64,000 bases of DNA, taken from positions 186,001 to 250,000 of the forward strand of contig JAMXBD010001436.1 of the NCBI GenBank assembly GCA_024138025.1, in the 5' to 3' direction. The notes beneath the pieces were generated by a model that was given only the letters and a program-made list of their open reading frames with translations, did not search any database and was not told the origin of the DNA. The stretch is from Combretum micranthum (lineage: Eukaryota; Streptophyta; Magnoliopsida; Myrtales; Combretaceae). Shown piece by piece: positions 2,097 to 57,640 of the stretch; the stretch's first letter is position 1, and each line of letters starts with the position of its first letter. A program made the position numbers and the translations under genes.

Positions 2097-3145
2097 TAGA
2101 GGTGTAAACAAGTCGAGACTACTTATGAGCTATTCAAGTTTGACTCAATAAAAGCTCGAGTTAGACTTACTTGTAATTAAGTTCGAGTTACTCAAGTAGC
2201 TATCGAGTTAAGTTCAAACTTTAAAATACTCAATTTAGTAAGCCTGTGAGCTTAATTGAGCTTTTATATATTTTAAATGAAAAATTATAAAATTTATTCT
2301 TTTTATTGTTAAAGCCTAGTTTAAAAAATTAGAGATTTTTTTTAATTATATCCGTGACCCATTGGCTTTTATAATTTCTAAAGGTTAATCGAGCTTTTTA
2401 TATGTTTTAAATAAAAAGGATTCTTTCGCACTTTCTCAAAAGCGCGAGCATGGAGATGATATGCTCCATTAAGCAACAATGGCATTGAGAATCCCTTTAA
2501 GAAATTTACATTTACAACAAACGTGGATGTCTCTGTTAGAGAAGCAATAATTGATCCTGATTGTTGGTTAGCAAAAGCGGATTCTGGGCTTGTTGATGAT
2601 TTAGGTATGTTTCTTTATGTTTGTGTTGCCTTGGGAGTAATTGGAGAAGAGGAAGAAGAATTGGAATGAGCAACAAGTTTCCCAAAGCAATTTTTTGAAA
2701 TATACCTGATATGGATTCAGAACCTCAGACATTTTAGAATACTTCCAATCTCACAAGATTAGTAAATGCTCACAGTGGATCAAAGAATGGGGTTCTTTTC
2801 CTTCTATTGATTAGGATGATCTAAAAAAAATTTAGCGTGTATTACTTAAGTGAAAGGAACACAAATTTTGTGTACATTGGGTGTATAGATATTCTCGATT
2901 TACTGTTTTGGAATTTCAGTTATAATTTTGGTTCTATATTGATGAATTGCCACATTGAACTTAACATGTTACACTAGCATGTATTCATACATAAGATATT
3001 ATATTGAACACTTTTTGCAAAAATTAACTATAAGCTATTCATTTATTTTTTTTTTTTTTTTTGAAGGATTGCAATAACAACTTTCATACCAGATGCCAGT
3101 GGTACTTCCAATCTAGAAGAACAACATTAGTTAGTAATCGAGCAA

Positions 3146-4670
3146 ATGGACATGAATAATGAACCAGCTTGTGGGAGTGACAACTTAAATCCTAATGTAG
3201 AAACTGATGACAAGTGTGATGAGGAAACTTTGTTTCATAGAAAGAAAAGATCTAAAACTTCAAGAGTGTGGATGGAGTTTGAGGAATTGACTCTTCCTAA
3301 TGGCCAAAATAAGGCTCAATGCTTACATTGCAAGAACAAGTTCACCTTTCTGATAAGTAAGAGTACCACTCATCTTAAACATCATTTAAATACATGTGTG
3401 AAAAGATTGATTTTTCAAAATCAGCAAAGTAGGCTAAATTTTTTGCCAACTGATGTTGGCCAAGAGATAAAAGAAATGACCTCTAGTATTATGAATGATA
3501 AATTTGATATGGAGAAAATAAGCAAAGCAATGGCCCTTTGGATTTTGATACATGAACACTCATTTTCTATTATAGAAGTGGAGGGTTTCAATATGATGGA
3601 AAGGCAGGGAATGCCTAAATGGGAGAACATATCCCGTAATAATCTAAAAAAGGATTGCAGTTAGGTGCATGAAATAAAGAAGAAAAAGTTACATGCATTG
3701 CTTAAAGATGTTAAAAAAAAGTTTGACAACTGGTTTATGGAAGTCAAAGAATCAAAAGATTGAATATATGGTGTTGATTGGTCGTTTTGTTGATCATAAT
3801 TGGAAGTTACAAAAACTTGTGCTTAATTTTGTTCATATACCCCCTCATCATTGTGGAATTGACATTGCTAATTCAATTTATAAATGTTTGAAAGAGTAGG
3901 GAGTTGAAAAAAAAGGTGCAAATAGATATGGTTTACAATGCATCTAATAATGACATGGCAATAAAAATCATTGAAGGATTCATTCTCTAAACATATGAGA
4001 CTACTTTGTAGGGGGAAATTGTTTTATGTTAAATGTGCTCACATTTTAAATCTTATAGTTCAAGATGGTCTTTTGGAAATTAAGGATAAAATTGAGAATG
4101 TGCATGAGAGTGTTTCTTATATGAATCAATCTGAGGATCGACTTCGGGTTTATCTAAGATTGTGTAGTAATTGCAATTACTTGGAAGGAAACTTGTTCTG
4201 CATCGTAAATAGGTTGGAATTCAACATATGAGATGTTATCTATTGCATTGAAATTCAAAGAAGTGTTCCCTAGATTTGCAAATAAAGACCTACATTATTG
4301 GTCTTCTCTAAGTTTGGATAAATGGGAGAAAGTTGATAAAGTTTGTAGCGTGTTACATGTTTTCAATGCTTCTACAAATGGTTTTTCAAGTAGTGACTAT
4401 CCAACATCTAACTTATTCTTACCTAAAGTATATTGTGTGAAGTTAGTATTAGATAAAATGTCACTTGATGATGATGAGTTTGTTCGGGTGATGATTAAGA
4501 AATTGAAGAGCAAATTTGACAATTAGTAAGGGGATTGAAATTTATTGATGGCTATAGCTAATGTCTTAGATCCTCAATGCAAGATGAGAGGTATTGAGTT
4601 TTTCTATCTTAAAATTTATCCAGAATAAGAGGCATAAGAAAATATCATGAGAATTCAAAAAGCGTTGTGT
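3146..4670 (+). pseudogene. hAT transposase relic with BED zinc finger
   Basis: hAT transposases cut and paste their element after the N-terminal BED finger binds its ends. The first piece (3146-3664, 172 codons) holds a BED finger: Cys59-x2-Cys62, then His76, His80 and Cys84. The next pieces are broken by stops and frameshifts: 3693-3899 (resembles the LWKSKNQKIEYM region of plant hAT transposases), 3971-4231 (a CAHILNLIVQDGL-type motif just before the DUF4413 region) and 4233-4526 (DKWEKVDKVCSVLHVF-type). Reading continues with stops to about 4667 (VLDPQCKMRGIEF), where an LTR-like block starts. The hAT C-terminal dimerisation region was not found beyond the block. The family call is firm; the exact original start and introns are not known. 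Confidence 0.82.
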
Positions 4671-19900: not shown

Positions 19901-21062
19901 TACTTAAGGTAATTATATTTACTGGGTGTAGAGACCAATTACTTAAGCTAATTATATTTATTGGGTGTAGAGACCAATTGTATCCCTCACCCTTGATCTA
20001 ACCATATCATAAAACCTTTATAGTTAGTGTCTTCCAATAATAATGGCTTTATTGGCTTTTTTTAACCCCAGTTGGAAAATGGGAATTGGAATATATGGAT
20101 TTGATTTCATAACAAAAATGGAAAAACAAAACAGGAATATACCGATAATTCAGTTTTCTATTTTCAATCTGATTGGATGTATCTCAAGAGTTATTGCTTT
20201 CAACTGGAAAAGAACCTTGCTATTAAAGCATTTGATTGTGATTTCAAAGGTAATCTTGATATACTTAAGCAGCAATCTCCACTAATTCATCAATTACCGG
20301 AGCTTATTATCCACAATCAGATTATTAGTTACCTATATTTTGAGAAAATTATCAACAAAAAACCAAAGAAAATTTTAAAAAAACACTTGGACTAATGTAG
20401 TCTGCATTCCCTTGTATGTGGCCCATTGGTCCAACATCTCCAAAGTATGCACTTTCCATGGTCCAGAACAGTGCAGCCTTTTGAAAGGTGGCTGCTTTCA
20501 CAATGAATACAATCATTCAAGAAAAGGTAGTCGCCCTTACCATATAATTAGTTTAATTCAAATATCATTAAACAAATGAAACTAAAGATCAGTTTTAACG
20601 AACCAATCAGCATCAGTCAATCATCTATTACCGGCATATATGGAAGTCAATTCCACAAATCCCGTCGCCGCAACTTCAATTTCACTAACACAACTTCAAT
20701 CGTTAACAGCACAGTCAACACCGTAACTACATGCACGATCAAATCACAATCATTTAGCTAACGCGGTTCATAGTCGAAACTAATCAACCCAAATACCAAA
20801 CTCGATCTCAATCTAATCATCGTTCAACTCAAATTCAACTAATCAAATACCAGATAATCGAAGAAATGAAAAATCAACGAACCAGATTACTATTGCAGCG
20901 ATCAAGATCCAAACACTTGACAGCAATGACTTCATTGGATGGAAGATAGATCGCTCGATACACAGTAGCACTGGCACCATAACCTACCTCTTCCAGAAGC
21001 TTATAATCGCTAGGGTTTGCAGAGAAAGATTTGTTACCTCTGTTATTTCCCATTCTTCCCAT
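10859..21062 (-). CDS. STE20/SPS1-related Ser/Thr protein kinase (OSR1/Fray-like), 21 exons, 733 aa
   Basis: Predicted cytosolic Ser/Thr kinase of the plant STE20-like group that includes Arabidopsis At4g24100 and At4g10730 and the relative BLUS1. My spliced model, 5' to 3' on the minus strand: 21062-20883, 18518-18264, 18091-17967, 17857-17813, 17700-17619, 17508-17440, 17173-17003, 16919-16854, 14912-14844, 14711-14637, 14521-14175, 13422-13286, 13208-13114, 13044-13006, 12850-12794, 12225-12127, 11984-11936, 11858-11803, 11326-11262, 11179-11128, 10927-10859. All 20 introns are GT-AG. The total is 2202 nt, in frame with no stop, and length fits the ~700-residue family members. I start at MGRMGNN because the kinase domain follows at residue 20. 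An in-frame ATG at 21233 would add 57 low-complexity residues. The substrate cannot be read from the sequence. Confidence 0.93.
15502..15536. repeat. (GA)n microsatellite in the exon 8-9 intron
   Basis: About 17 uninterrupted GA units lie within the 1.94 kb intron at 14913-16853. On the gene strand it reads as (CT)n. The rest of that intron holds nothing else I recognise. Confidence 0.95.
17302..17362 (-). other. G-rich tract on the gene strand, potential G-quadruplex, in intron 6
   Basis: The plus strand is a run of CCCC/CCCCC blocks separated by A or CA. Read on the transcribed-sense (minus) strand it gives GGGG-T-GGGG-T-GGGG-T-GGG followed by further G runs. This exceeds the four closely spaced G tracts needed for a quadruplex. 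It lies in the 266-nt intron between exon 6 (ends 17440) and exon 7 (starts 17173). Confidence 0.7.
18834..19128. mobile_element. Foldback MITE in intron 1 of the kinase gene
   Basis: The left arm AAAGGATAATATCATGAATG continues to TTTTGATAAAA. The reverse complement of the right arm reads AAAGGGTTAATGCTATGAATG and ends in the same TTTTGATAAAA, so there are inverted repeats of about 40 bp. The middle contains further inverted TACTAAATTAAT-type segments. Both flanks show TTAAG, a possible short target duplication. No coding potential. Confidence 0.65.
19901..19979. repeat. Two tandem copies of a 39-bp unit in intron 1
   Basis: TACTTAAGGTAATTATATTT (from 19901) recurs as TACTTAAGCTAATTATATTT (from 19940). 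Each is followed by A(C/T)TGGGTGTAGAGACCAAT. The copies differ at about two positions, so the duplication is recent. Confidence 0.9.
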
Positions 21063-21396
21063 GCTAATATAATTAAACCCTAACTGATCACAAAATAGGG
21101 GGTAGAGAGAGAGGGAGGGAGGGACAGAGAGAGAGAGAGAGTGCGGTTTGGAGAGTTGAGTTGAGGAAAGAGCTTTTGGAGAGGAGTTTTTCGATCCGTT
21201 GACCACCACGAGAAGCGAAGCGATAGGGAACACGGAAGGGAAGAGAAGAGAAGAGAGAGAAAAGGAGAAAGAAAGTGAAGTGGCGAGAGAGAAAGTAAGA
21301 TGGTAAGGTCAGTCTCTCAGCTCAGTGAGTTGCCATGGAGATGACGTGGCAGGAGGTTGATGATCAACCATTAGATTCACCTGTACTTTACTGCAT
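21063..21396 (-). promoter_or_regulatory. Proximal promoter and 5' UTR of the kinase gene
   Basis: This is the only non-transposon sequence upstream of the start codon. It is GA-rich on the plus strand (pyrimidine-rich CTCTCT on the gene strand) from about 21100 to 21300, as in many plant 5' UTRs. TGACGTGGC at 21342-21350 (GCCACGTCA on the gene strand) has the ACGT core of a bZIP site and lies about 280 bp upstream of the ATG; its use is inference. I could not assign a TATA box or transcription start. The MULE begins at about 21397. Confidence 0.55.
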
Positions 21397-21526
21397 GGAA
21401 AAACTTAGGAAAAAAAGGCATTGAAAGTGCCATCAATTTGTATTTTAGGTTAAATGGTGTGTGATTTTTAATTTTTTATATTTTTTATACCTCCGATACT
21501 AATATGGGGAAAAGAATAAAATATTT

Positions 21527-21929
21527 GATTAATCACAAACACATGGTCTGTGTTTTTAGTATTTTGTAAATATATGATTTGTGTTATCTTTTTGGATAAT
21601 TAAGTGACTCAAGTTTTATAAAAAAAGTGTCAATGTTATTAATCACTATTAGAGAAAATGTGTTAGAGTCTTATTGGTCTAAAAAAATAATGTAATAAAA
21701 ATAATAATAAATAAAAATATTAAAATTTATTTTTGAAAATTAGAAAATTGAAAAATTTGTAAAATTAATTTTTGTGATTAATAAAATATTGACACGTGTC
21801 ATTCTAAAATTATTAAATAATATTAACACTTTTAGACAAAACTCGGATCACCTATTTGTCAAAAAAATAAAACGGGTCATGTATTTACAAATTAGTCAAA
21901 ACACATGTCATGTTTTTGTAATTAACCCT
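21527..21929. mobile_element. MITE inserted in the left terminal repeat of the MULE
   Basis: The left arm GATTAATCACAAACACATG and the reverse-complemented right arm GGTTAATTACAAAAACATG start inverted repeats that run over 100 bp (TTTTGTAAATATATGA versus TTTGTAAATACATGA). Flanks are AAAATATTT (21518-21526) and AAAATATTA (21930-21938), 8 of 9 identical, the duplication size of Mutator-type elements. The MULE arm is continuous across it when compared with the intact right arm. Confidence 0.8.
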
Positions 21930-21999
21930 AAAATATTATAGTTTTAAAAAAAATTACAAATTTATCATTAGGACGAAATTAATTTCGATTTTAAGTAAT

Positions 22000-22140
22000 A
22001 TGATCTCGTCTCTTCAAGAGACTAGGTTAGGTCAGGTCATATTACTTAACCTCGTCGCCGCCTCCTACCTCATCCTTTCAAGAGATGAGGTCATTAGTAG
22101 GTAACATCATCTCTTGAAGAGAGGAGGTTAGCGGACCTAA
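22000..22140. repeat. Left subterminal array of a short palindrome (3 copies)
   Basis: Copies of a near-perfect palindrome with core TCGTCTCTTCAAGAGACGA occur at about 22003, 22063 and 22105. Each is extended by (A/T)GACCT or AGGTCA on the outside, and they are degenerate to different degrees. The same unit recurs five times at the other end of the element. Confidence 0.8.
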
Positions 22141-22385
22141 AACCCCGTCGAGCCTCCTTCTTCCTCATTCCTCTCCACCACCGAATACGAAATACGAAAA
22201 TCCCCAAATCCCAAATTGTAAACCCTAACCCCAGATTCTCAAATTGGAATCGATTCAACAAAATTTGCTCCGTATATTAGTAATTTTGGATCACCCGATG
22301 TTGAGGAACAAGCAATTTCGTGGAGAAAAGAGGAGAAAAAGAAGCGCCGACAAATTGTGATATGATTCCGCAATTTTCAAAAAAA

Positions 22386-22800
22386 AAATTGAATTATTGA
22401 AGCTACATTGTTGAATATTAGTTGTATGTATTATGGGAATATTGGTTGTCGTATGATTCCAAAATTTTGCAATTTTTTTTTTATTTATTGATGTTACATT
22501 ATTGAATATTGTCTATGTACTATATGACTTATGAAATTTCGCAAAGTTCTTATAATTTTGCAATTTTTTTAATTTCATTGTTGAATATTATCTATGTGTT
22601 CTGTATGAATTTCACAAAATTTCAATTTTTTTTTCGTATGTCTATGTGTTTTATATGACTTATAGGAATTTCGCAAATTTCCTAAATTTTTTGCAATTTT
22701 GCAATTTTTTTTAATCTCATTGTTGAATATTGTCAATGTGTTCTATATGAATTTCGCAAATTTCAATTTTTTTATGTATGTCTATGTGTTCTATATGACT
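22386..22800. repeat. Degenerate tandem repeat of about 142 bp in the MULE leader
   Basis: CATTGTTGAATATTATCTAT (22576) and CATTGTTGAATATTGTCAAT (22718) start two copies. Each continues with GTGTTCT(G/A)TATGAATTTC, a T run, TATGTCTATGTGTT and ATATGACTTATAGGAA. A shorter, more diverged copy precedes them from about 22400. Confidence 0.8.
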
Positions 22801-23225
22801 TATAGGAAATTAATATGATACATAGGTTTGTTCAAAAATAGAAAAAATTTTACGTAATAGAAATGAACATTTAAAATTATAATTTATATAAAGTGATTTT
22901 AATTTTATATAAAGTAGATTATAAATTAGTGATAGAAATCAACATTCAAAATTGCACATAAAAGGAGAAATTAACTTTATATAAAGTGATACAAATAAAG
23001 TAGATTATAAATTAGTAATTTTAATTTTAACTTTGAAAATCTAGCCATATCATTCACTTTTACCGCTGATTTTGTTCATATACTATTACAAGACAAGGGT
23101 ATATATATAGTAGCATTAAAAGTTATGTTAAATATTACGGGAGTTCAATTCATAAGTGTGATGCAAATTTCATGCATTCAAGCTATTTTTTATGAGATAG
23201 CAGGGTCGGTAAGGAAATTGATAAG

Positions 23226-24720
23226 GTGAAGTTTATACTGTACGGTCATAGCAACATTGTGCAAGGGGATGATAGTTTTGGTTATAATAAGCAGTCGGTT
23301 GCTGTGGTCAGTGTTAGTAGGAACTCTACTTATAGGCAAATACTGGACATCATTTGGAATAAACTGAAGGTAAATAGGTATACACATCGGGAGAAGCTAT
23401 ATCATAAGGTAGCTATTAGATATAGAACGCTACATTATGATATTATTCCAGTAACTGATGATGATACTGCACAGGAGATGTTGGTGTACACAGAAGGGCC
23501 AGTGGATGTTTGTGTGCAGATATTGGAAAATGAATTATCACAGCCACCTACAGGGCAAATGGGCATTGATAGAAATATTGGGAGCGAAGGGTTGGTAGAC
23601 TCAAACTTCACTCCAGTTCAGACAATAAGTAGTGCACACGTGGAAATTAGTGCACCCAGCTCGTTAGGTGGTCATGATATAGATGCCATGCAAGACTTAT
23701 CGGTAAATGAATCAAGTAATGACTAATGATGATGGAAATCATAATGTCTAAGCTTTTCCCCAACAATATGCTTTTCCCGAGGTACAACCAAGGATAAATG
23801 ACTGGCACCACTTCATTGCTCCCACTGATGTTAATGCAGTAGGGAGCTCAGCGCCAGTACCCTTTTTCAATCCTGAAGTTGGTAGTGCTTATGCTACATC
23901 TGATGATGAGCAAGAAATGACTGTTGGGAATTGGAGCTTCAGTGATGAATTCAAAATAGGATGTGGTTTGAGATAAAAGATCATCTCATACAAGTAGTTA
24001 AAATGTGGTACATAACGAACCATTACAATTTCAAGGTGGTGGAATCGGACCTAAGATCATGGGCAGTTAAATATACTGATACCACAACAGAGATTGTAAG
24101 TGGAGACTCAGAGGCACTTATAAGAAACATGGTAGGTAGTTTCACATCACTAAGTATGAAGGACCCCACACCTACTTGGATGAAATCACTGGACAGGATC
24201 ACCTCACATCATGTTAAGGAGCATCATATTGGAGATCCATAATTCTCTAGATGTGAGGGCAAAGGACCTCCAACTGAATATCTTAAAATAGTTCGGGTAT
24301 CATGTTCATATAAAGAAGATTCGTGAGGCGAAGAGAAAAGCTATTGAGCAGGTGTATGGAAGTTGGGAAGATTCGTATGTGGAGCTCCTGCATTTACTTA
24401 ATACAGTAATAGAGTCAAATCCAGGAACAAAGGTTGAGTGGCGAACTGTTGTTTCAGATACCACAGGACACGTATTCCTAGACAAGCTTTTTTGGGCATT
24501 CGGATCTTGCATTGAAGCGTTCCAGCACTGCAAGTATGTTTTATAAACATGATTGAATTTATTTATATATGGTTGATATCCACTAACTAAGTTTTATCCA
24601 TTAATTCATTGCAGACCCGTGATTACAGTTGATCGCATCTTCCTATATGGTAAGTACAAGCACAAACTGCTTATTGTAGTGGCAGTAGATGAGGTAAATC
24701 ATATAGTCCCATTGGCGTGT
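23226..24720 (+). pseudogene. mudrA-type MULE transposase relic, truncated
   Basis: The first piece (23226-23726) resembles the N-terminal region of MuDRA proteins (VKFILYGHSNIVQGDD at the start), opening at GTG with no clear ATG. An acidic linker (23760-23950) leads to FKIG, then after a frameshift the Mutator DNA-binding domain: MWFEIKDHLIQVVKMW and VVESDLRSWAVKY (23961-24070). After a gap, 24352-24546 carries WEDSYVELLHLL-type sequence. An intron-like gap (24547-24614) leads to VITVDRIFLYGKYKHKLL and VAVDEVNHIVPLACALV, the start of the MULE DDE catalytic domain with its first Asp. Reading stops near 24720, so the rest of the DDE domain and the SWIM zinc finger are absent. Not functional. 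Confidence 0.82.
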
Positions 24721-24863
24721 GCTCTTGTCGTAGTGGTAATTCTTTGTTCTCATATGCTTTGTTCTACTATACTAATGTGACATGCTTTTATCTTATGTTT
24801 GCTCTGCTTGTTTTAATCCACATATGCCTTTACTAACAATATCCATTTCTTTCTCCGTTACAA

Positions 24864-27012
24864 ATGGATCCCGGATCAATAGATAGTTCATTACTTACAG
24901 AACAGCACATTCATAGGTCGAGACTAGGCTGAGAGGGGCAGGTAGGTTTATTTTTGCAATCCATTACTTATAACAAGTAATTAATGTTTCTTATAGATTC
25001 GTGGACTTCATTGTAGGAGCATGTGATTTTGCATTATCACCATAAAGAGGCGAAGTTGAGGCGACAGCATGGCGTACCTGTATAGATAGATGATCGATTA
25101 GTGCCACTTCTGTCCCAGGCGGGTTTCATCGGGGCGACCCATATGTCATTCTTCCAACTGGATTAGCACCTCATCATGACTTTGGTTGAGAGATGGCGGC
25201 CAGAGACCCATGCCTTCTACATGACCACGGGGAGAGTGGTCTGTGACATTGGAGGATGTTGTTGTCCTCACTGGTTTACCTATAAATGGCAACGCAGTTA
25301 CGGGCGTGGCACGAATAGATTGCCCTGCATTATGTAAGGAGCTGTTAGGGCTTCGACCTATGCCCAAGACGGATATGGATGGTGGTCATCTGAAGATGTC
25401 GTAGTTAGACACCCACTTCAGAGTATTACCAGATGTTGTAGATGATGTCATGATCAGACGCTACGCTAGGGCGTATATCTTGTTGTTGCTGGGTGGATTC
25501 ATATTTGTGGACAAGTCATCAAATTACGTCCACCTGATATATCTTCAGTTGCTCCAGGACTTGGAGAGGGTCGGGTAGTATGCGTGGGGAGTAACCTGTT
25601 AGGCATGGCTATACAGGCAGCTATGCTTGGCTTCCCACGTGGACACCAACGATATTGCAGGATTGTTGGTTGTCTTGCAAATATGGGCATGGGAGCACTT
25701 CTCCCACATTGTCTCGATTTGTCAACAGCTTACAACAGTTACTGCAGGACGCCTACTCATTAGCCATTGGAAGTCGCACCAGTATATCCACCCACTTGCT
25801 GATTGAGTATCGAGCATCTTTAGATCGACAGACCGAGCACCAGGTATGATTTTTATTACCTTATTTCCTTGAAATTGATTATCAATGCCTTGTTCCCTTC
25901 AAATTGCAACATTTTGATATTTTTGTTAATTGTTAGTGTATTTTTTTCCCTTCAATAGGTTGTATGGGGCCCTTACAATCCCATCCTGGACTCCCTGCCT
26001 CCATACTGCCAAGCGAGCAACGACATTTGGCGTACACGAGTCCCTCTCGTATGCTTCCACCTAGTTGAGCACTACTACCCAGACAGAGTACCGAGACAGT
26101 TCGATGGGTTCTAGGGGATCCCACACCCATTTGTCGACATGAGAGCCCTGCATGAGATTGATATGTGGGGGTGTTCCAAGTAGAATTGGCAAGCGGAGCA
26201 CGCTAAGTGGATAGCTGAGTAGGATGATTGGCGTGATCGCATCGTTGAGATGCCAGATATGCCTACCGGTACATCTGATGATTACTTTCAGTAGTATCAT
26301 ACAATCACCCGATGTTGGATTAGTCGCACGGGAGCTATCATATGCTATATGGTAAGCTTACAGACTCGATAAGCTGTGAAAGGAAATGTATTGTGTTTTC
26401 ATTATTCACTAATACACATTTTTGCTGTTGCTTGCAGGCAGATTTCATTTATAGAGTCCCACACATGCCTTCAGAGATTGCTTCTTCCACTGCACGAGAT
26501 GTCTATCGTGTAGTTGATGAGTTTATGGGACTTAATTTTAATGATCTACTACTACCAGCATCGGCAACAGTAGCAGCACCAGCACCAGCACCAGCACCAA
26601 CACCGGATGACCTACGGCCTCAAGTAGTTCAGAGACAAGGTCTACATAGAGAGAGGCATGGGCAAGGACCAGGTTAGTGCTCGAGGTATACAGATCAGAG
26701 ATGAGCCTGAGCCGTCCCATGTATCCTCATTTGATCAGCCTGACTCTTCGCAGTTCCTTCATCACGAGGCTGGCCCATCGTCATCATACATACTCATCTG
26801 GGGGACATCCCCATGCCAAACTCGTCATACACGTAGTTTCATACCCTCCTAGCTCCACATAAGAGGCAACCATCACCATCACATGATATGGGAGAGGGAC
26901 TCACACTACATAGATTGATCCATCTACACAGCATCCTCATCAGTGTACACTATTCGCTCGGACGTTTGTGAGAAGAGGACCAGGGAGGCGGGGCAAACAC
27001 CACCAGTAGTAG
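24864..27012 (+). pseudogene. Plant mobile domain (PMD, MAIN/MAIL1-like) gene carried by the MULE
   Basis: PMD proteins are plant factors (MAIN, MAIL1) or transposon-borne relatives; the domain's biochemistry is uncertain. Exons by GT-AG signals: 24864-24941 (MDPGSIDSSLLTEQHIHRSR, a start I know from many PMD proteins), 25017-25843, 25959-26351 and 26438 to about 27012. Recognisable in pieces: LVERWRPETHAFYM (near 25170), VTLEDVVVLTGLPINGN (25240-25290, other frame), ARAYILLLLGGFIFVDKSSNYVHL (25465-25540), IAGLLVVLQIWAWEHFSH (25650-25705) and VPLVCFHLVEHYYPDRVPRQFDGF (26040-26115). Exon 4 encodes an Ala-Pro repeat (about 26574-26604) in a Pro/Gln-rich tail. Stops (such as TGA at 24930) and frameshifts make it a pseudogene, although its introns look intact. 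Confidence 0.8.
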
Positions 27013-27379
27013 ATAATAGATTTTCTCATTTTTCTTATTGTTGGATATAGATTCTTAGTTTTTTTATGATTATTGTATTCCATTTCTCTTATTCGTTTGA
27101 TGAAAAGACACAATCGGCAATTGATTTCATATTATGTTTTTTTGAGTTTTATATTATCTTCGTGATGAAAAGTTTGACAATACATTTTATGGTTGAATGA
27201 TTTCGGATTGACATTGCGTTTGCTTAGATTGGGTTTGAGAATACTACTGAAACTTGGAAGTTGTTTAGCCATGGTGGAGGATGGCTAATTATATAACTGT
27301 TTATATCTGATTTGGACAGGTTTTATTATAAATGTAAAAGGATTTATTTTTCAAGGAATAAGTTAGAAGTGAGGAAATT

Positions 27380-27575
27380 TTGCCTGACCTCCTCTCTTCA
27401 AGAGTCGAGGTCATACCATGAACTAACTTCGTCTCTTGAAGAGAGGAGGTCAGGATATACTTGACCTCGTCTCTTTAAGAGAGAGGTTATGCCGATCCAC
27501 ATGACCTCATATCTTCAAGAGACGATATAAAGTAATATATCCTGACCTCGTCTCTTCAAGAGACGAGATCAAGCA
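27380..27575. repeat. Right subterminal array of the same palindrome (5 copies)
   Basis: Palindrome units start near 27383, 27425, 27460, 27505 and 27543, about 40 bp apart. The last is the most perfect (TCGTCTCTTCAAGAGACGA with GACC before it). They sit just inside the right terminal inverted repeat, mirroring the three copies at the left end. Confidence 0.85.
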
Positions 27576-27856
27576 CTAACAACCTCCTCGGGATTAATTT
27601 TGTCCCTATGGAAAATTTGTAATTTTTTTAAAAAATATAATATTTTATTCTTTTTCCCACTAATATGATCAGAAAAATAAAACTAAAGATATCATATATA
27701 TATAAATAAAATCTCAGACAATAATATCTCTAAATTACAAAATATAGCCACTTACAAGGCCATTTTTTCGAAAAACTTCCCACTACTCAATTTGGTCTCC
27801 ATCCCTTCAACTAAATGCTAGTTTTTATAATATATATATATATATATTTAATATTA

Positions 27857-45898: not shown

Positions 45899-46189
45899 TT
45901 GATGTTGTGACAGAAATTTAAGGCTTTGATAGGGATTACTTGAGGAAGAAAGTAAATTAAAGTTATTTCTTAAACAGCAAGTTATTTTTTATATTGACTG
46001 TGTTAAATTGTATGCCGACCTAGGAGTTCAGTTACCATTAAGGCGACAAGGTGCTATAGCTTTCATGATAGGTTTAGATGTAATGTTTGGGGATTTGAGC
46101 ATCCTGTTGTGCTAGGTGGGCACTTTGATAAGTATGAGGATGAGGATGATAATAATCATAAAGAACAACGACCTAAATCATTGAGGGGT

Positions 46190-46960
46190 ATTGAGACCAT
46201 GAAACTAAAGGTTCCTTCTTTTGACGGCAGTGGTTATATTGATAAATATTGTGATTAGGAGGATCAAATTGAAAGGCTTTTCTATTACCATGATTGTAAA
46301 TACACATAGAGGTCAAAGTTGCAGCGATTGAGTTCAAAGAGCATGTCGCTTCATAGTAGAAGAATGTATTGGCTAGTTAATGAAGAATGATTAGCATGAT
46401 GCCACTAATTGGGAGAGACGAAAAAATTGTTGCAACGGCAATTCATGCCAAAATATTATAATCAAGAATTGTTGAATCGTCGGCATACTTTGTGTCAAAG
46501 CAATAATAGCGTGACAAAATACATTCAAGAGTTTGAGATCCTCACGGTGCGTAGTCAAATTACTGACACTCTTGAGGAATATATTACCAAGTTCATTGCA
46601 GGGTTAAAGTACGATATTGCCAACGTAGTAAAGCTATAAAGGAGGCTATGCTAATGGCTAAGAAGGCATAAAGGTAGCATAAGTGGGATCTGCATAAATC
46701 TTTTAATAATGCTTCCAAAGATGAAATGGAGAGCAATCTTATGGGGTCAGTAATAAAACAACCCATAAGGCTAGTAGTAGCTACAAAGGTGACAGAAGTA
46801 GCAAATATAAGGGCTCAAATAAATCCGTTAATGACAAAAGTAAGTCAATTGTAAAATTTTTATATTCTAGTAGTATAGGGAAGGTGAACAGGGATATCAA
46901 ATGTTTTAAATGTTTAGAGTTTTGTCACATGGCGGCATAGTGTCCAAATAGATATGTGAT
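46190..46960 (+). pseudogene. gag relic of the Ty3/gypsy element
   Basis: Gag forms the particle that packages the element RNA. MKLKVPSFDGSGYIDKY (near 46200) and WxDQIERLFYYHD open the usual capsid region. 46409-46639 gives a clear Retrotrans_gag piece (LLQRQFMPKYYNQELLNRR, YIQEFEILTVRS, FIAGLKYDIANVV). A CCHC zinc knuckle, C-FK-C-LEFC-H-MAA*-C (about 46900-46940), has a stop inside it. Several further stops and a frameshift occur. Confidence 0.8.
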
Positions 46961-47149
46961 GTTAACACATGAAGGATATTTGGAGAGTGAAGATGAGAAT
47001 GAGTGTAATGATATAAAGGATTCCAAAGACGATACGGAAGAGAAGGAGCCAATTGAGCAAGTTATTGGGGCAACCACGACAACTAATGGAGTTATGAGGA
47101 AAAAACTCAGTATGATACCGACAGTTGATCAGGAACAGTGAGAAAATAT

Positions 47150-48311
47150 ATTCCATATAAAATTCTTAGTTAATGGTGTAGTATATATGGCTATCATCGA
47201 TTCTAACAGTTACACTAATGTAGAAGTAATTGCACTAAAGGGGTCCATATATGTAACTAAATAGGTATCCATTCCTATATCCCTTCTTAACCTATATTAA
47301 TGAGGTGATATTCGATGTAGTTCCTATGAGTGTATCTCACATTTTGTTGGGTTATCTTTGCTTTATTGATCGAAATGTGGATCACAATAGTTGGGATAGT
47401 ACTTGTTCAGTTTTATATAATGGAAAACAGTTTAAATTGTTTCCCATGAGTATGAGGCTATTAGGCAAACTCATTGGGAGTTGAACCCTCCTGAGAATAA
47501 GTCCTTATTGTTGAGACATGGAGTTGTGTAAACGGAAATTTCTAGTAGGCAACGGTTGTATTTATTGCATGTCAGATAGGTTTTAGGAATAGAGAGTGAG
47601 TTGTTTGTTCTAGTTGTTGTGCAACAATTGCTAGTGAAGTTTACTAACTTTTTCTTGAAGAACTTCCAAAAGGGATATATCATTTACGATAAAAAGAACA
47701 TCGAATTAATGTAATGCTTGTAGCAACTCTACCTAATAGGCCAACTTACCAAAGGAATCCTGAAGAGGCTAAAGAGTTGAAGTAATAAGTGGATGAGTTG
47801 TTAGAGAAATGGTTTGTGCATGAAAGTATGAGTCCTTATTTTATTTTAGCTTTGTTAGTGTCAAAGAAAGATGAGAATTGGCAAATGTGTGTAGATGCCG
47901 AGCTATAAATTGAATCATATTTAAGAATAGATGTCATATCCCTCATCTTGGTGACATGCTTGATGAATTACATGGTGCTCAATTATTTTCTAAGATAGAT
48001 TTAAAGAGTAGTTACCATCATACTAAAATGAAGGCTAGTGGTGAGTTGGAGACAGTTTTCAAGATAAAACATGTCATGTATGAGTGGACAATTATTCCTT
48101 TTGTCTTGTGCAATGCTCTTGGTACCTTCATGCGACTAATGAATTATGTGCTAAGGGAGTTCTTAGGAAAGTTTGTTGTTGTCTATTTTGGTGACATCTT
48201 AGTTTACAATCCTTACCTAAAGAGTCATGTTAATCATCTAAGTTTGGTCTTCATCGTATTGAGGAAGGAAAAACTTTATGCTAACAATAATAAATGTATT
48301 TTTTGTTAGAA
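47150..48311 (+). pseudogene. Protease and 5' part of reverse transcriptase (pol relic, first half)
   Basis: The protease part FLVNGVVYMAIIDSNSYTNV (near 47165-47220) has DSN where the aspartic protease motif is DSG or DTG. The reverse transcriptase follows from about 47750. In 47956-48309, LHGAQLFSKIDLKSSYHHTKMK, FVLCNALGTFMRLMNYVLR and VVVYFGDILVYN are clear. The YxDD-type catalytic pair (normally FDD) reads FGD, so one essential Asp is lost. The gene is cut at KCIFC/FLGY by solo LTR B and resumes at 55700. Dead by stops and by the lost Asp. Confidence 0.88.
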
Positions 48312-54300: not shown

Positions 54301-55694
54301 ATAAGAAAAACTTAAAGAAAAGAAAAAGAAAGAAAACTATGGAAGTCTTAGATTTTATTCAAGTCTTTCCGGGACTTAGAAATGGACAAAACCTATAATG
54401 AAAAGCAACAAAATAATAAGAAAACATGGGAGTCTTAAATTCATATCAGGGCTCCCCAGGACTTAGATTATGGACAAGTCCTCTTTTGTTTTGACTTGAT
54501 TAAGGAGAAGTGTAAGGTTAGAAATTGACTAGTCTTATTTATTTAGCATGAAATAAGAGATGAGCAAGGAATAAAAGCAATAATAAGAAGTTAGATTAGT
54601 GAGCTTTAGGCTCTAAAAATATATATACATATTTTTACATAATAACATATAGAAAGTGATGTTAGGAGCATGAATATGACATAACATAAATTTAACATAG
54701 ATTTACACAAGACATGAACATGATGTTGTTTCTATGATTTCATTCCTTAACATAAGCTCATGGCGATGTGTTGAAATCATAACATACATGATGTTCATGT
54801 TATGTTTTCATAAACTAAGGAGATGGTTTAAGTGTTTACCTAATATAAATGAAGATGGATGATAGATGGGTAAAAGAAAAATTTGTGAAAATCACTTTTG
54901 AAGAGGGAGAGGAGACCCAAGGTTTGAAAGAAAAAGAGAGAGAGTTTTATTATGAAATGAAAGTGTGTGTAAAGAATGAAGGAGGGAGAAAGTATTTATA
55001 GAGTTTTTGAGTGAAAATTTGTATGAATTAAATTAAATGAAAATGAAATAAAATTAGATAGATAGATGGAGGGGGTATCAACCATGAGAGAAGAGAGGGA
55101 GAGAAATTGATTAAAAAATAATTTTTATAATGAAAAGTAAGTAATATGTAAGATAAGTTATGTATAAAATAGTATTGAAAAAGAAAATGTAAGAAATAAG
55201 TATGTAGGTTATAAGAATAGGTAGAGATAGAGAAATAATAATGAATAGTAGTAAATAATAAAGTGAATAGGAAACAAGACAAATAAATTACTGATAGTAA
55301 GGAAATACGTGTAAACGACCTATATATGATGTTTTTAGAAGCTAAAAAATTTTATAACTTATATTTTATGATTCCTCTCCTTATTATCAATCTAAGTATA
55401 TTGTCAGAATATTTTCACCATTTTGCATGCCAGGACCTTGTTTTAAGAAACTGCTCTCGTTTGGATGCGAAACCATAGAATTTTTTACGAATATGATCTT
55501 TTTAGTTATAAGAAATTATTTCGAACTATAATCCAAGGTTATCTCGTTTTTACTATTTTAGTGTTTTATGTACGGATTACCGGATCTAACTTCACTAAGA
55601 CTTGTTATTGACCTAGGTTGGCTTTAGGGTTCCACTTTGACTTTTGGTTCTAAGGTTTGTGCATAAAACTTAATCATAAATCCATGGATCTACT
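48336..55694 (+). mobile_element. Solo LTR B, split by solo LTR C, inside the reverse transcriptase
   Basis: The head TGTCAAGCCTCAAAAGGTAC lines up with those of LTRs A and C (ACGTGGTAGTCCGC versus ACGTGACAGTCCGCC). The tail (GGTTGGCTTTAGGGTTCCA.., ..CCATGGATCTACT) lines up with the tail of C. Flanks GTTAT (48331-48335) and ATTAT (55695-55699) agree at 4 of 5. Leaving out LTR C and its duplication gives about 3663 bp, close to A (3845) and C (3691). The reverse-transcriptase reading is interrupted at 48335 and resumes at 55700 after a one-base frameshift, which confirms the insertion limits independently. Confidence 0.85.
49160..52850 (+). mobile_element. Solo LTR C nested in solo LTR B
   Basis: Starts TGTCACGCCCCAACGGGTAC, ends ..CGAAAAATCTAGGGGCTTACA, 3691 bp. 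Flanks CTACA (49155-49159) and CCACA (52851-52855) agree at 4 of 5. No coding region. It is the same family as A and B. Confidence 0.85.
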
Positions 55695-55699
55695 ATTAT

Positions 55700-56340
55700 G
55701 TTGTTTTTTGATAGGTATCCGTGATGATGAGAAGAAGATTAAAGTCATCATTGAATGGCTTAATCTTGCTAACGTTTCTAAGGTTTGTAGTTTTCACGGA
55801 CTTGCTTCCTTTTATGGGAAATTTATTAAGAATTTCAGTATTATTCAAAGCCTTTCACAGGATTAACCAAGAAAGGGTTCCATTTTGGTGGAATCAAGTA
55901 GCTTAGCAAAGTTTTGATTTGATTACGTAAAAGTTAACTTCAGTGCGTATTCTAATACTTCTAGATTTTAATGAGGTTTTTGAACCGGAGTATGATGCTT
56001 CAAATGTTGGTGTTGGTGTTGTAATGATGCAAGAGGAGGATCTTATATCTTGTTTTAGTGAGAAACTTCATGGAGTGGTAGTGAATTATCCTATCTATGA
56101 TAAGGAGTTATATTATTTGGTTTGAGCTGTTAAGGTATGGCAACATTATCTCTTACCAAAAGAGTTTATTATTTTACTAACCATGAGTTTCTTAATTATC
56201 TTAAAGGCTAAAACAATTTGTTTAAGAGGCATGCTCAATGGGTAGAATTTTTGGAGACATTTGCATATACTAATAAATATAAGAAAGGTAACACTAATGT
56301 TGTAGTTGATGGTCCATCTAGAAGACATGTTTTGTTGAAT
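55700..56340 (+). pseudogene. 3' part of reverse transcriptase and RNase H (pol relic)
   Basis: 55712-55860 completes the reverse transcriptase (GIRDDEKKIKVIIEWL, VCSFHGLASFYGKFIKNFS). The RNase H follows: FEPEYDASNVGVGVVMMQ (55980-56032, the catalytic-Asp region), CFSEKLHGVVVNYPIYDKELYYLV, WQHYLLPKEF and [11 protein letters not shown]. It is broken by a frameshift near 55866 and by stops. Confidence 0.85.
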
Positions 56341-56499
56341 TATATGTAAGCTAAATTATTGGGATTTGACCAAATTGTGGGATACTGCCAACAAGTTGTT
56401 TGCACAGATTGTAGTAATGGGAAATCCATGTGTGGTTATCACATGATGGATGGTTACTTGCTTAGATATTAAAAGTTGTATATTCCATAAGGTTCTATG

Positions 56500-57640
56500 C
56501 ATGAGATGTTAGTTCATGAAGCTCATGCTTGAGGTCTTTTTGGAAATTTTGGTAAGCATTAAAATCTAGATGCATTCTTTGGTAATTTTTATTGGCTTGG
56601 TATGGCTAGGAATGTTTATGAGGTTGTCGAGAGTTGTTTTATGTGCAAAAAGGCTGAGAGTAGAAGTAAACCACAAGGTTTGTATGTGCTACTGCCTATT
56701 CCTACCAGACCTTAAGTAGAGTTGAGAATGGATTTTGTTGTGGGACTTCTTAGAACTCAATGGAATATTATTCTATTTTTGGTATTGGTCAATAGATTTA
56801 GTAAAATGGCATGTTTTATTCCTTGCCACAAGACTAATGATGTTATGTATATTGCAAATTTATTTATGCAAGAGGCAATTCCATTATTTTCAAATCAAGA
56901 CGTTAAGCTCTTCTGTTAGTTTTGGGAGACTTTGTAGACATGTATGGGAATAAAGTTGTTGAGTAGTACCACTTGTCATCTACACACTAATGGGCAGACT
57001 AAAGTGGTTAATAGAACTTTAGATGCATTGTTGAGAGGGACAGTTGGGAAGAATTTGAATGATTGAGATTATTGCTTACCTATTGTAGAGTTTGCTTATA
57101 ATCATTTGGTTCACCCATGCTATAGGAAAGATACCTTTTGAAGTAGATTATGGTTTCAATCCTAACTTACAGTTAGATTTATTACCTAAACCCTCTATAA
57201 TGAGGATGATAAAAGTAGTATAGAAAAAGTGAGCAGATACAACAGGTACACCAAAGGGTTTATGATCATCTAAAAAAAACCAAACTAATAAAATTAAGCA
57301 GAGTAAGGACAGGGAAAGACAAAGAATTATATTTTAGCCTTGAGATTTGGTATGGGTTCATCTCAAGAAGGATGGATTTCCTAGGAAGAGGGGATAGAAG
57401 TTAGCTCCTGAATTAAAGGCTCTTTCAAAATAGTGGAGCGTGTTAATAATAATGCATATAAAGTCAACTTACCAAATGATTTTAGTAGAGTTTCAACAAC
57501 TTTAAATGTTGTAGATTTGTCACCTTATGTATCTAATGAGTTTGATTTAAATTTAAGGGAAAATCTCCAAGAGATTAGGGGAGATGATTGGAATCATGGG
57601 TCTATTGGTCCTATTACACGAGCTCGAGATATGGGAATGT
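56500..57640 (+). pseudogene. Integrase and C-terminal end of pol
   Basis: The HHCC zinc-binding part (LHEAHA near 56510 and CFMCKKAES near 56640) precedes the integrase core. MDFVVGLLRTQWN (56730) keeps the first catalytic Asp. The second motif, usually SDRD, reads SNQD (56890), and GQTEVVNR reads [10 protein letters not shown] (56992-57018), losing the catalytic Glu. The end piece (57433-57642: NNAYKVNLPND, STTLNVVDLSPY, IGPITRAR) runs into the 3' LTR. Stops occur throughout, so no active integrase is possible. Confidence 0.87.
57571..57584 (+). promoter_or_regulatory. Polypurine tract of the Ty3/gypsy element
   Basis: GAGATTAGGGGAGA directly precedes the TG of the 3' LTR at 57585, where the plus-strand primer of reverse transcription is expected. 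It overlaps the pol reading. Confidence 0.65.

Follow-up and report, generated by a model that had tools for sequence, protein, structure and literature searches.

Plant mobile domain (PMD) genes on Mutator-like elements (MULEs) were first described in rice (Babu et al. 2006, as cited in PMC5418596), and MULE-PMD fusion proteins were later reported in grasses and Amborella by Ikeda et al. (2017, PMC5418596), who guessed at an anti-silencing role. The same paper called the function of the PMD undetermined, and in 2021 it was still described as largely unknown how the MAIN/MAIL1 complex acts (PMC8616336). For VANC, the second gene of VANDAL elements, a change of target motif between families has been described (Hosaka et al. 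2017, PMC5735166); in the available text of PMC8616336 and PMC6419827, VANC and PMD are both named, as separate topics. The subject of this analysis is a MULE in a 64-kb stretch of the Combretum micranthum genome (contig JAMXBD010001436.1, positions 186,001 to 250,000, called the window from here on) in which the remains of the transposase gene mudrA are followed by a PMD gene. The original prediction, made from the letters of the window, presented this arrangement as its best candidate for a little-described system; MULE-borne PMDs had already been described by Ikeda et al. We take the MULE of the window to be an old and dead member of a large mudrA-PMD family, and consider it probable that in living copies the PMD works like the VANC of VANDAL, binding the palindrome arrays of its own family and preventing silencing.

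A MULE family that pairs mudrA with a PMD gene

The mudrA gene of the window (Table 1) changes frame several times and, from the DBD onward, has 48% identity to residues 1-248 of P0030, a protein with the Pfam domains DBD, MULE and SWIM (the proteins compared were 29 from one search and the best 120 of 893 from another). The Pfam MULE profile (PF10551) matches over 24619-24729 at profile positions 1-37 of 99 only (E 1.6e-4, below the cut-off), and a tblastn search of the 64 kb for the missing C-terminus, which might have lain elsewhere in the window, gave no match (best E 0.45). This bears out the prediction that mudrA breaks off within its DDE domain near 24720. The blocks that meet at 24727-24730 stand about 1.08-1.09 kb apart in other host copies and share up to 4 bp at the junction; the window copy is therefore the deletion derivative that had been proposed. 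A single deletion with short homology at the junction removed about 1.1 kb from mudrA, and the copy has decayed. The PMD gene had been predicted to start at 24864 with an ATG and the residues MDPGS and to continue through four exons with GT-AG borders. This anatomy stands, and the stitched translation matches PF10536 at 253.8 bits (E 3.4e-75; Pfam curated cut-off 34.9). A working gene does not, because the reading is broken by 9 TAG codons and 1 TGA codon in frame as far as 26674 (10 stops in all) and by 2 frameshifts in exon 2. The original reading of exon 4 may have extended to about 27010. The PMD of the window is a pseudogene, both genes of this copy are dead, and the copy taken alone is an ordinary dead element of some age.

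The host genome (1.86 Gb) contains at least 139 PMD matches (117 of 7649 candidates scored), and we used the first 20 loci sorted by PMD score, a sample outside which copies without a PMD fall. In all 20 loci mudrA lies just upstream of the PMD on the same strand, which is the order that the original prediction had proposed to look for in intact copies. The mudrA span is near-full in 13 of them (from P0030 residue 20 or lower to residue 599 or higher by tblastn), a measure of span and not of an intact frame, with stops or frameshifts in many host copies. The remaining 7 lack part of mudrA, and in one of these, L013, only the last 100 residues are missing. Two loci outside the 20, L030 and L031, also have mudrA followed by PMD; one of the two represents a set of nearly identical matches. 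A DNA search of the genome with the window's two genes gave at least 55 matches (40 of 3879 candidates scored); among the matches listed, 39 other places match the PMD side, of which 34 start within query positions 1516-1521 (window 24723-24728) and 6 also match the mudrA side. Locus L027 spans mudrA residues 1-601 by tblastn, though no mudrA piece of it is among the DNA matches listed. Ends of the same type as those of the window MULE are seen in further copies of the host. Besides the window MULE, 12 copies carry arrays on both sides, and 7 of these have a target site duplication (TSD) of 9/9 bp, with offsets scanned up to 8 bp on each side.

In all 16 readable loci the mudrA stop is separated from the PMD start by 25-164 bp, as read on the genomic DNA of partly decayed copies and not on transcripts. 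The PMD start is an ATG in 14 of the 16 and directly preceded by AG in 15, an AG that looks like a splice acceptor; a check for splice donors upstream of the PMD found nothing in the 5 loci tried, a result that neither shows nor excludes a fused transcript. Insertion of the PMD into mudrA as a separate event was rejected on two grounds, since no duplication above short repeats was found at 24860 and 27010 and the order is the same in 20 host loci. The PMD tree places the window PMD with the MULE copies of its host (support 100 with four of them) and not with MAIN-like genes, the comparison that the original prediction had suggested; a grouping with the annotated eudicot MULE-PMD proteins P0122, P0051 and P0086 was also considered, and the tree places them apart. 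No plant relatives were found in viral_contigs, either by exact motif or by PMD alignment.

The ratio of nonsynonymous to synonymous substitution rates (dN/dS) was computed between copies, dropping pairs with dS of 0.05 or less, pairs that were not computable and pairs with fewer than 60 codons, and leaving out the window PMD for its frameshifts. Its median is 0.15 for the PMD exon-2 core (21 copies, 7 of them without a stop in this core; 115 usable pairs of 210) and 0.23 and 0.25 for two regions of mudrA (12 copies with 59 pairs and 9 copies with 22 pairs, respectively). These values point to purifying selection on both genes and suggest that the PMD has been kept about as strictly as the transposase. 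Because the order of the two genes is fixed, their spacing lies within the range given above and selection between copies is purifying, we conclude that the PMD is a working part of this MULE family.

Two other origins of the arrangement have to be weighed against this conclusion. According to the original prediction the PMD may have outlived the transposase, and deletion derivatives moved in trans may have spread PMD genes. The window copy and the 7 loci that keep a PMD without part of mudrA would fit such a history, as would the small share of places with mudrA-side pieces among the listed matches of the DNA search, but the loci were picked by PMD score, so that retention of the PMD is built in, the window PMD is itself a pseudogene, a near-full mudrA span is kept in 13 of the 20 loci, L027 included, and dN/dS is below 1 for both genes. 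We regard this history as very unlikely, although some PMD-only copies moved in trans may exist. It is even harder to credit that the PMD is a passive passenger, captured from the host in the manner of a Pack-MULE. MULEs do capture genes, and Ikeda et al. argue that the genic PMD-C was captured (PMC5418596); the constant gene order, the low median dN/dS of the PMD and a deep split shared by the PMD and mudrA trees all speak against a passenger.

Palindrome arrays and the proposed role of the PMD

Next to both ends of the window MULE, starting about 90 bp in, are arrays of a 29-bp palindrome (motif 1), of which no copy was found elsewhere in the window at up to 10 mismatches of 29. An exact 22-mer of motif 1 occurs 2921 times in the genome on the forward strand, and its reversed control 0 times. 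The 13-bp core of the motif (up to 2 mismatches) was counted 122 times across 17 of the 22 stretches, against a background of 2 occurrences in the remaining 57.6 kb of the window, beyond the element, and 73 of the 84 spacings below 120 bp are of 36-42 bp. Copies of motif 1 are present in 14 of the 20 loci, in 12 of them on both sides. Contig C1 has, among the matches listed, 23 clusters of motif 1, of which 12 make up six pairs at distances of 4.5-6.6 kb and 11 stand alone; the latter may be short derivatives or diverged ends. One 9.7-kb stretch, L026, has four motif-1 clusters with 18 core copies, which suggests nested or neighbouring family members. The palindromes are specific to subfamilies: loci L010, L013 and L022 carry motif 2, AGGCGCCGTTNNNAACGGCGCCT, on both sides in place of motif 1, and in a tree of 22 PMD rows those with motif 2 form one clade (100/99) and the 16 motif-1 rows together with L027 form another (100/99).

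The predicted model of a PMD relative matches the fold of VANC21, a DNA-binding fold. DUF1985, the family of VANC, is found at E 1 or better in 16 of 49 PMD proteins, and the best score among those listed is 19.8 bits against a Pfam cut-off of 35.1, so we do not class the PMD as a VANC. DUF287, a second VANC domain, is absent from the 25 families shown, of 26, for PMD proteins, and a search of the PDB by PMD sequence gave no match. In the mechanism that we propose, the PMD would bind its own family's palindrome arrays, which lie near the two element ends, and this binding would lift the silencing of the element.

The main competitor of this mechanism, which we consider rather unlikely, holds that the palindromes are binding sites of the transposase or structural signals, and that the PMD acts elsewhere, for example on the MAIL/PP7L complex of the host. 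MULE transposases are expected to bind near element ends, and the window arrays lie close to them. The mudrA tree (18 rows) also gives the same split by motif as the PMD tree, so that MURA may be the protein that reads the motif. Against the transposase stand the predicted fold of the PMD, which is that of the sequence-specific DNA binder of another MULE, and the regular spacing of the repeat units, which resemble VANC targets and not a single transposase site.

The split of the mudrA tree is one of several points that weigh against a VANC-like role of the PMD. The fold match is at 9% identity and concerns the predicted model of a relative, not of the window PMD, and a PMD profile search of PDB sequences gave five matches, none of them VANC. 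MAIN and MAIL1 have a known role in silencing, which is the opposite sign. Three loci (L019, L020 and L027) have PMD and mudrA with neither motif and no recognised array, and the motif-2 copy L013 also holds two loose matches to the motif-1 core. Compensatory changes within the palindromes are weak by a shuffle test: the observed value was reached in 29 of 2000 shuffles at arm position 10, 17 of 2000 at position 13 and 59 of 2000 at position 7, and more often at the rest. As for selection, the median dS is 1.06 and many pairs are near saturation, and pairs with dS below 0.3 give dN/dS of 0.38 (25 PMD pairs) and 0.47 (11 mudrA pairs); higher ratios in close pairs are as expected from decay after insertion.

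A VANC-like role in living copies, which we still prefer, could be addressed directly by a test of binding, given the VANC21-like predicted fold and the subfamily-specific arrays, and the mudrA-PMD family would provide a concrete, testable function for this domain. More tentatively, and with no better than roughly even chances in our judgment, the plant mobile domain may belong to the VANC fold as a remote offshoot. On this view it would read specific DNA sequences and would have had its origin, or its spread, on MULEs, where it served against silencing and each subfamily had a palindrome array of its own, with MAIN, MAIL1 and MAIL2 as relatives turned to host use. If so, reading of DNA by host PMDs would explain the promoter motif (DOWN) in genes that need MAIN, MAIL1 or MAIL2. 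Such a descent would also explain why, among the 136 PMD proteins compared, 17 (a good part of them host-type) have a mudrA-type PB1-like N-terminus without a transposase core (P0008, P0010, P0047-P0049, P0052-P0054, P0057, P0058, P0061, P0063, P0065, P0067, P0068, P0071 and P0110). The strong match to these PMD-linked N-termini is that of mudrA P0032 and not that of the window mudrA, whose N-terminus alone reaches an hhalign probability of only 47. With such an origin, a single kind of DNA reader, listed in Pfam under two names, would seem to serve MULEs in their escape from silencing, and plants would seem to have recruited one for silencing of their own. A recent preprint reportedly deals with modules of PMD proteins and DNA motifs; if so, motif reading by host PMDs has already been proposed.

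Ends of the element and its surroundings

The original prediction placed the ends of the MULE at 21397 and 27781, at an outer inverted repeat that proved to be a 225-bp miniature inverted-repeat transposable element (MITE). This repeat was ruled out as the MULE ends by the terminal inverted repeats (TIRs) of host copies, which start with GGGAAAAGGAA, and by the inner TSD, and the ends were moved inward (Table 1). The left end of the MULE is GGGAAAAGAATAAAATATT, and the right end matches it inverted. The TSD is perfect (9/9 bp on both flanks), and its 9-mer occurs in the window 2 times on the + strand and 1 time on the other. The TIR arms, aligned without the nested MITE, agree in 96 of the 113 bases compared, a divergence that points to an old insertion. 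The MULE jumped into the 225-bp MITE, which is itself palindromic (156 of 241 columns identical when aligned with its own reverse complement), and split it into two parts. Another MITE, of 403 bp, in turn interrupts the left TIR of the MULE; its ends are GGGTTAATTACAAAAACATG-like, and it has a 9-bp TSD, TAAAATATT, at 21517-21525 and 21929-21937. When this MITE is removed, the left TIR runs on into its match with the right TIR.

Table 1. Coordinates of the MULE, its genes and the associated repeats in the window
Feature	Position	Strand	Evidence
225-bp palindromic MITE, left part	21396-21497		
Left TSD, ACTAATATG	21498-21506		
MULE (ends corrected), 6152 bp including the nested 403-bp MITE	21507-27658	+	TIRs and TSD
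Nested 403-bp MITE, interrupts left TIR of MULE	21526-21928		
Left palindrome array, motif 1 (TGACCTCGTCTCTTSAAGAGACGAGGTCA), 3 copies	22001-22130		
mudrA, broken and truncated (PB1-like domain, DBD region, first third of DDE)	23208-24730	+	
mudrA N-terminal PB1-like domain	23208-23549	+	
First third of DDE (MULE) domain	24615-24729	+	PF10551 partial match
Deletion junction, overlapping flanks	24727-24730		
PMD exon 1	24864-24941	+	
PMD exon 2	25017-25843	+	
PMD exon 3	25959-26351	+	
PMD exon 4, first open part	26438-26674	+	
Right palindrome array, motif 1, 5 copies	27385-27571		
Right TSD, ACTAATATG	27659-27667		
225-bp palindromic MITE, right part	27668-27781		

The MITE with its nested MULE lies a few hundred bases upstream, in the likely promoter, of a reading frame whose start (20874-21308, minus strand) is protein kinase-like by eye. 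Elsewhere in the window, and also judged by eye, are broken frames that resemble a hAT transposase (3131-4523) and pieces that resemble a broken Gypsy-type polyprotein (46007-48306 and 55654-57639).

Comparison with known systems

The literature search, whose coverage was partial and does not prove novelty, found no report of a structural link between PMD and VANC, of palindrome arrays of MULE-PMD elements or of the PB1-PMD architecture. Predicted proteins with mudrA followed by PMD were found by protein search also in the eudicots Heliosperma and Actinidia. The large PMD set that includes the window copy also includes eleven near-identical proteins of Fagus sylvatica (P0066, P0069, P0070, P0073, P0075, P0077, P0088, P0113, P0114, P0121 and P0123), which look like a recent amplification. 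One predicted protein of Rhodiola kirilowii, P0024, has PMD, then MULE, then SWIM, the reverse of the usual order, which may be an artefact of the gene model.

The MULE-PMD of rice, grasses and Amborella resembles the present family in joining a MULE transposase to a PMD-type domain (PMC5418596). There the two form a single fusion protein, whereas here a stop and a short gap lie between mudrA and PMD in every readable locus, and neither palindrome arrays nor a VANC-like fold are mentioned in the available text of that paper. The host genes MAIN, MAIL1 and MAIL2 share the PF10536 domain with the MULE PMD and differ from it in acting in silencing and gene expression (PMC7156037, PMC5418596, as far as their available text goes). 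L032, the one host PMD locus examined that has no mudrA, has no array either, as expected of a host gene. MUSTANG MUGB is likewise derived from mudrA, with a PB1 domain before the transposase; it is domesticated, and the available text of PMC3435246 names no plant mobile domain in it. A further parallel is VANDAL21 with VANC21 (Hosaka et al. 2017, PMC5735166), a MULE with a second gene of matching predicted fold and a short non-coding repeated motif that differs between families. According to the available text of that paper, the VANC21 motifs are arrayed in one orientation, whereas those described here are palindromic and stand in arrays beside the element ends, and VANC belongs to DUF1985, whereas the PMD belongs to PF10536 and stays below the Pfam cut-off for DUF1985.

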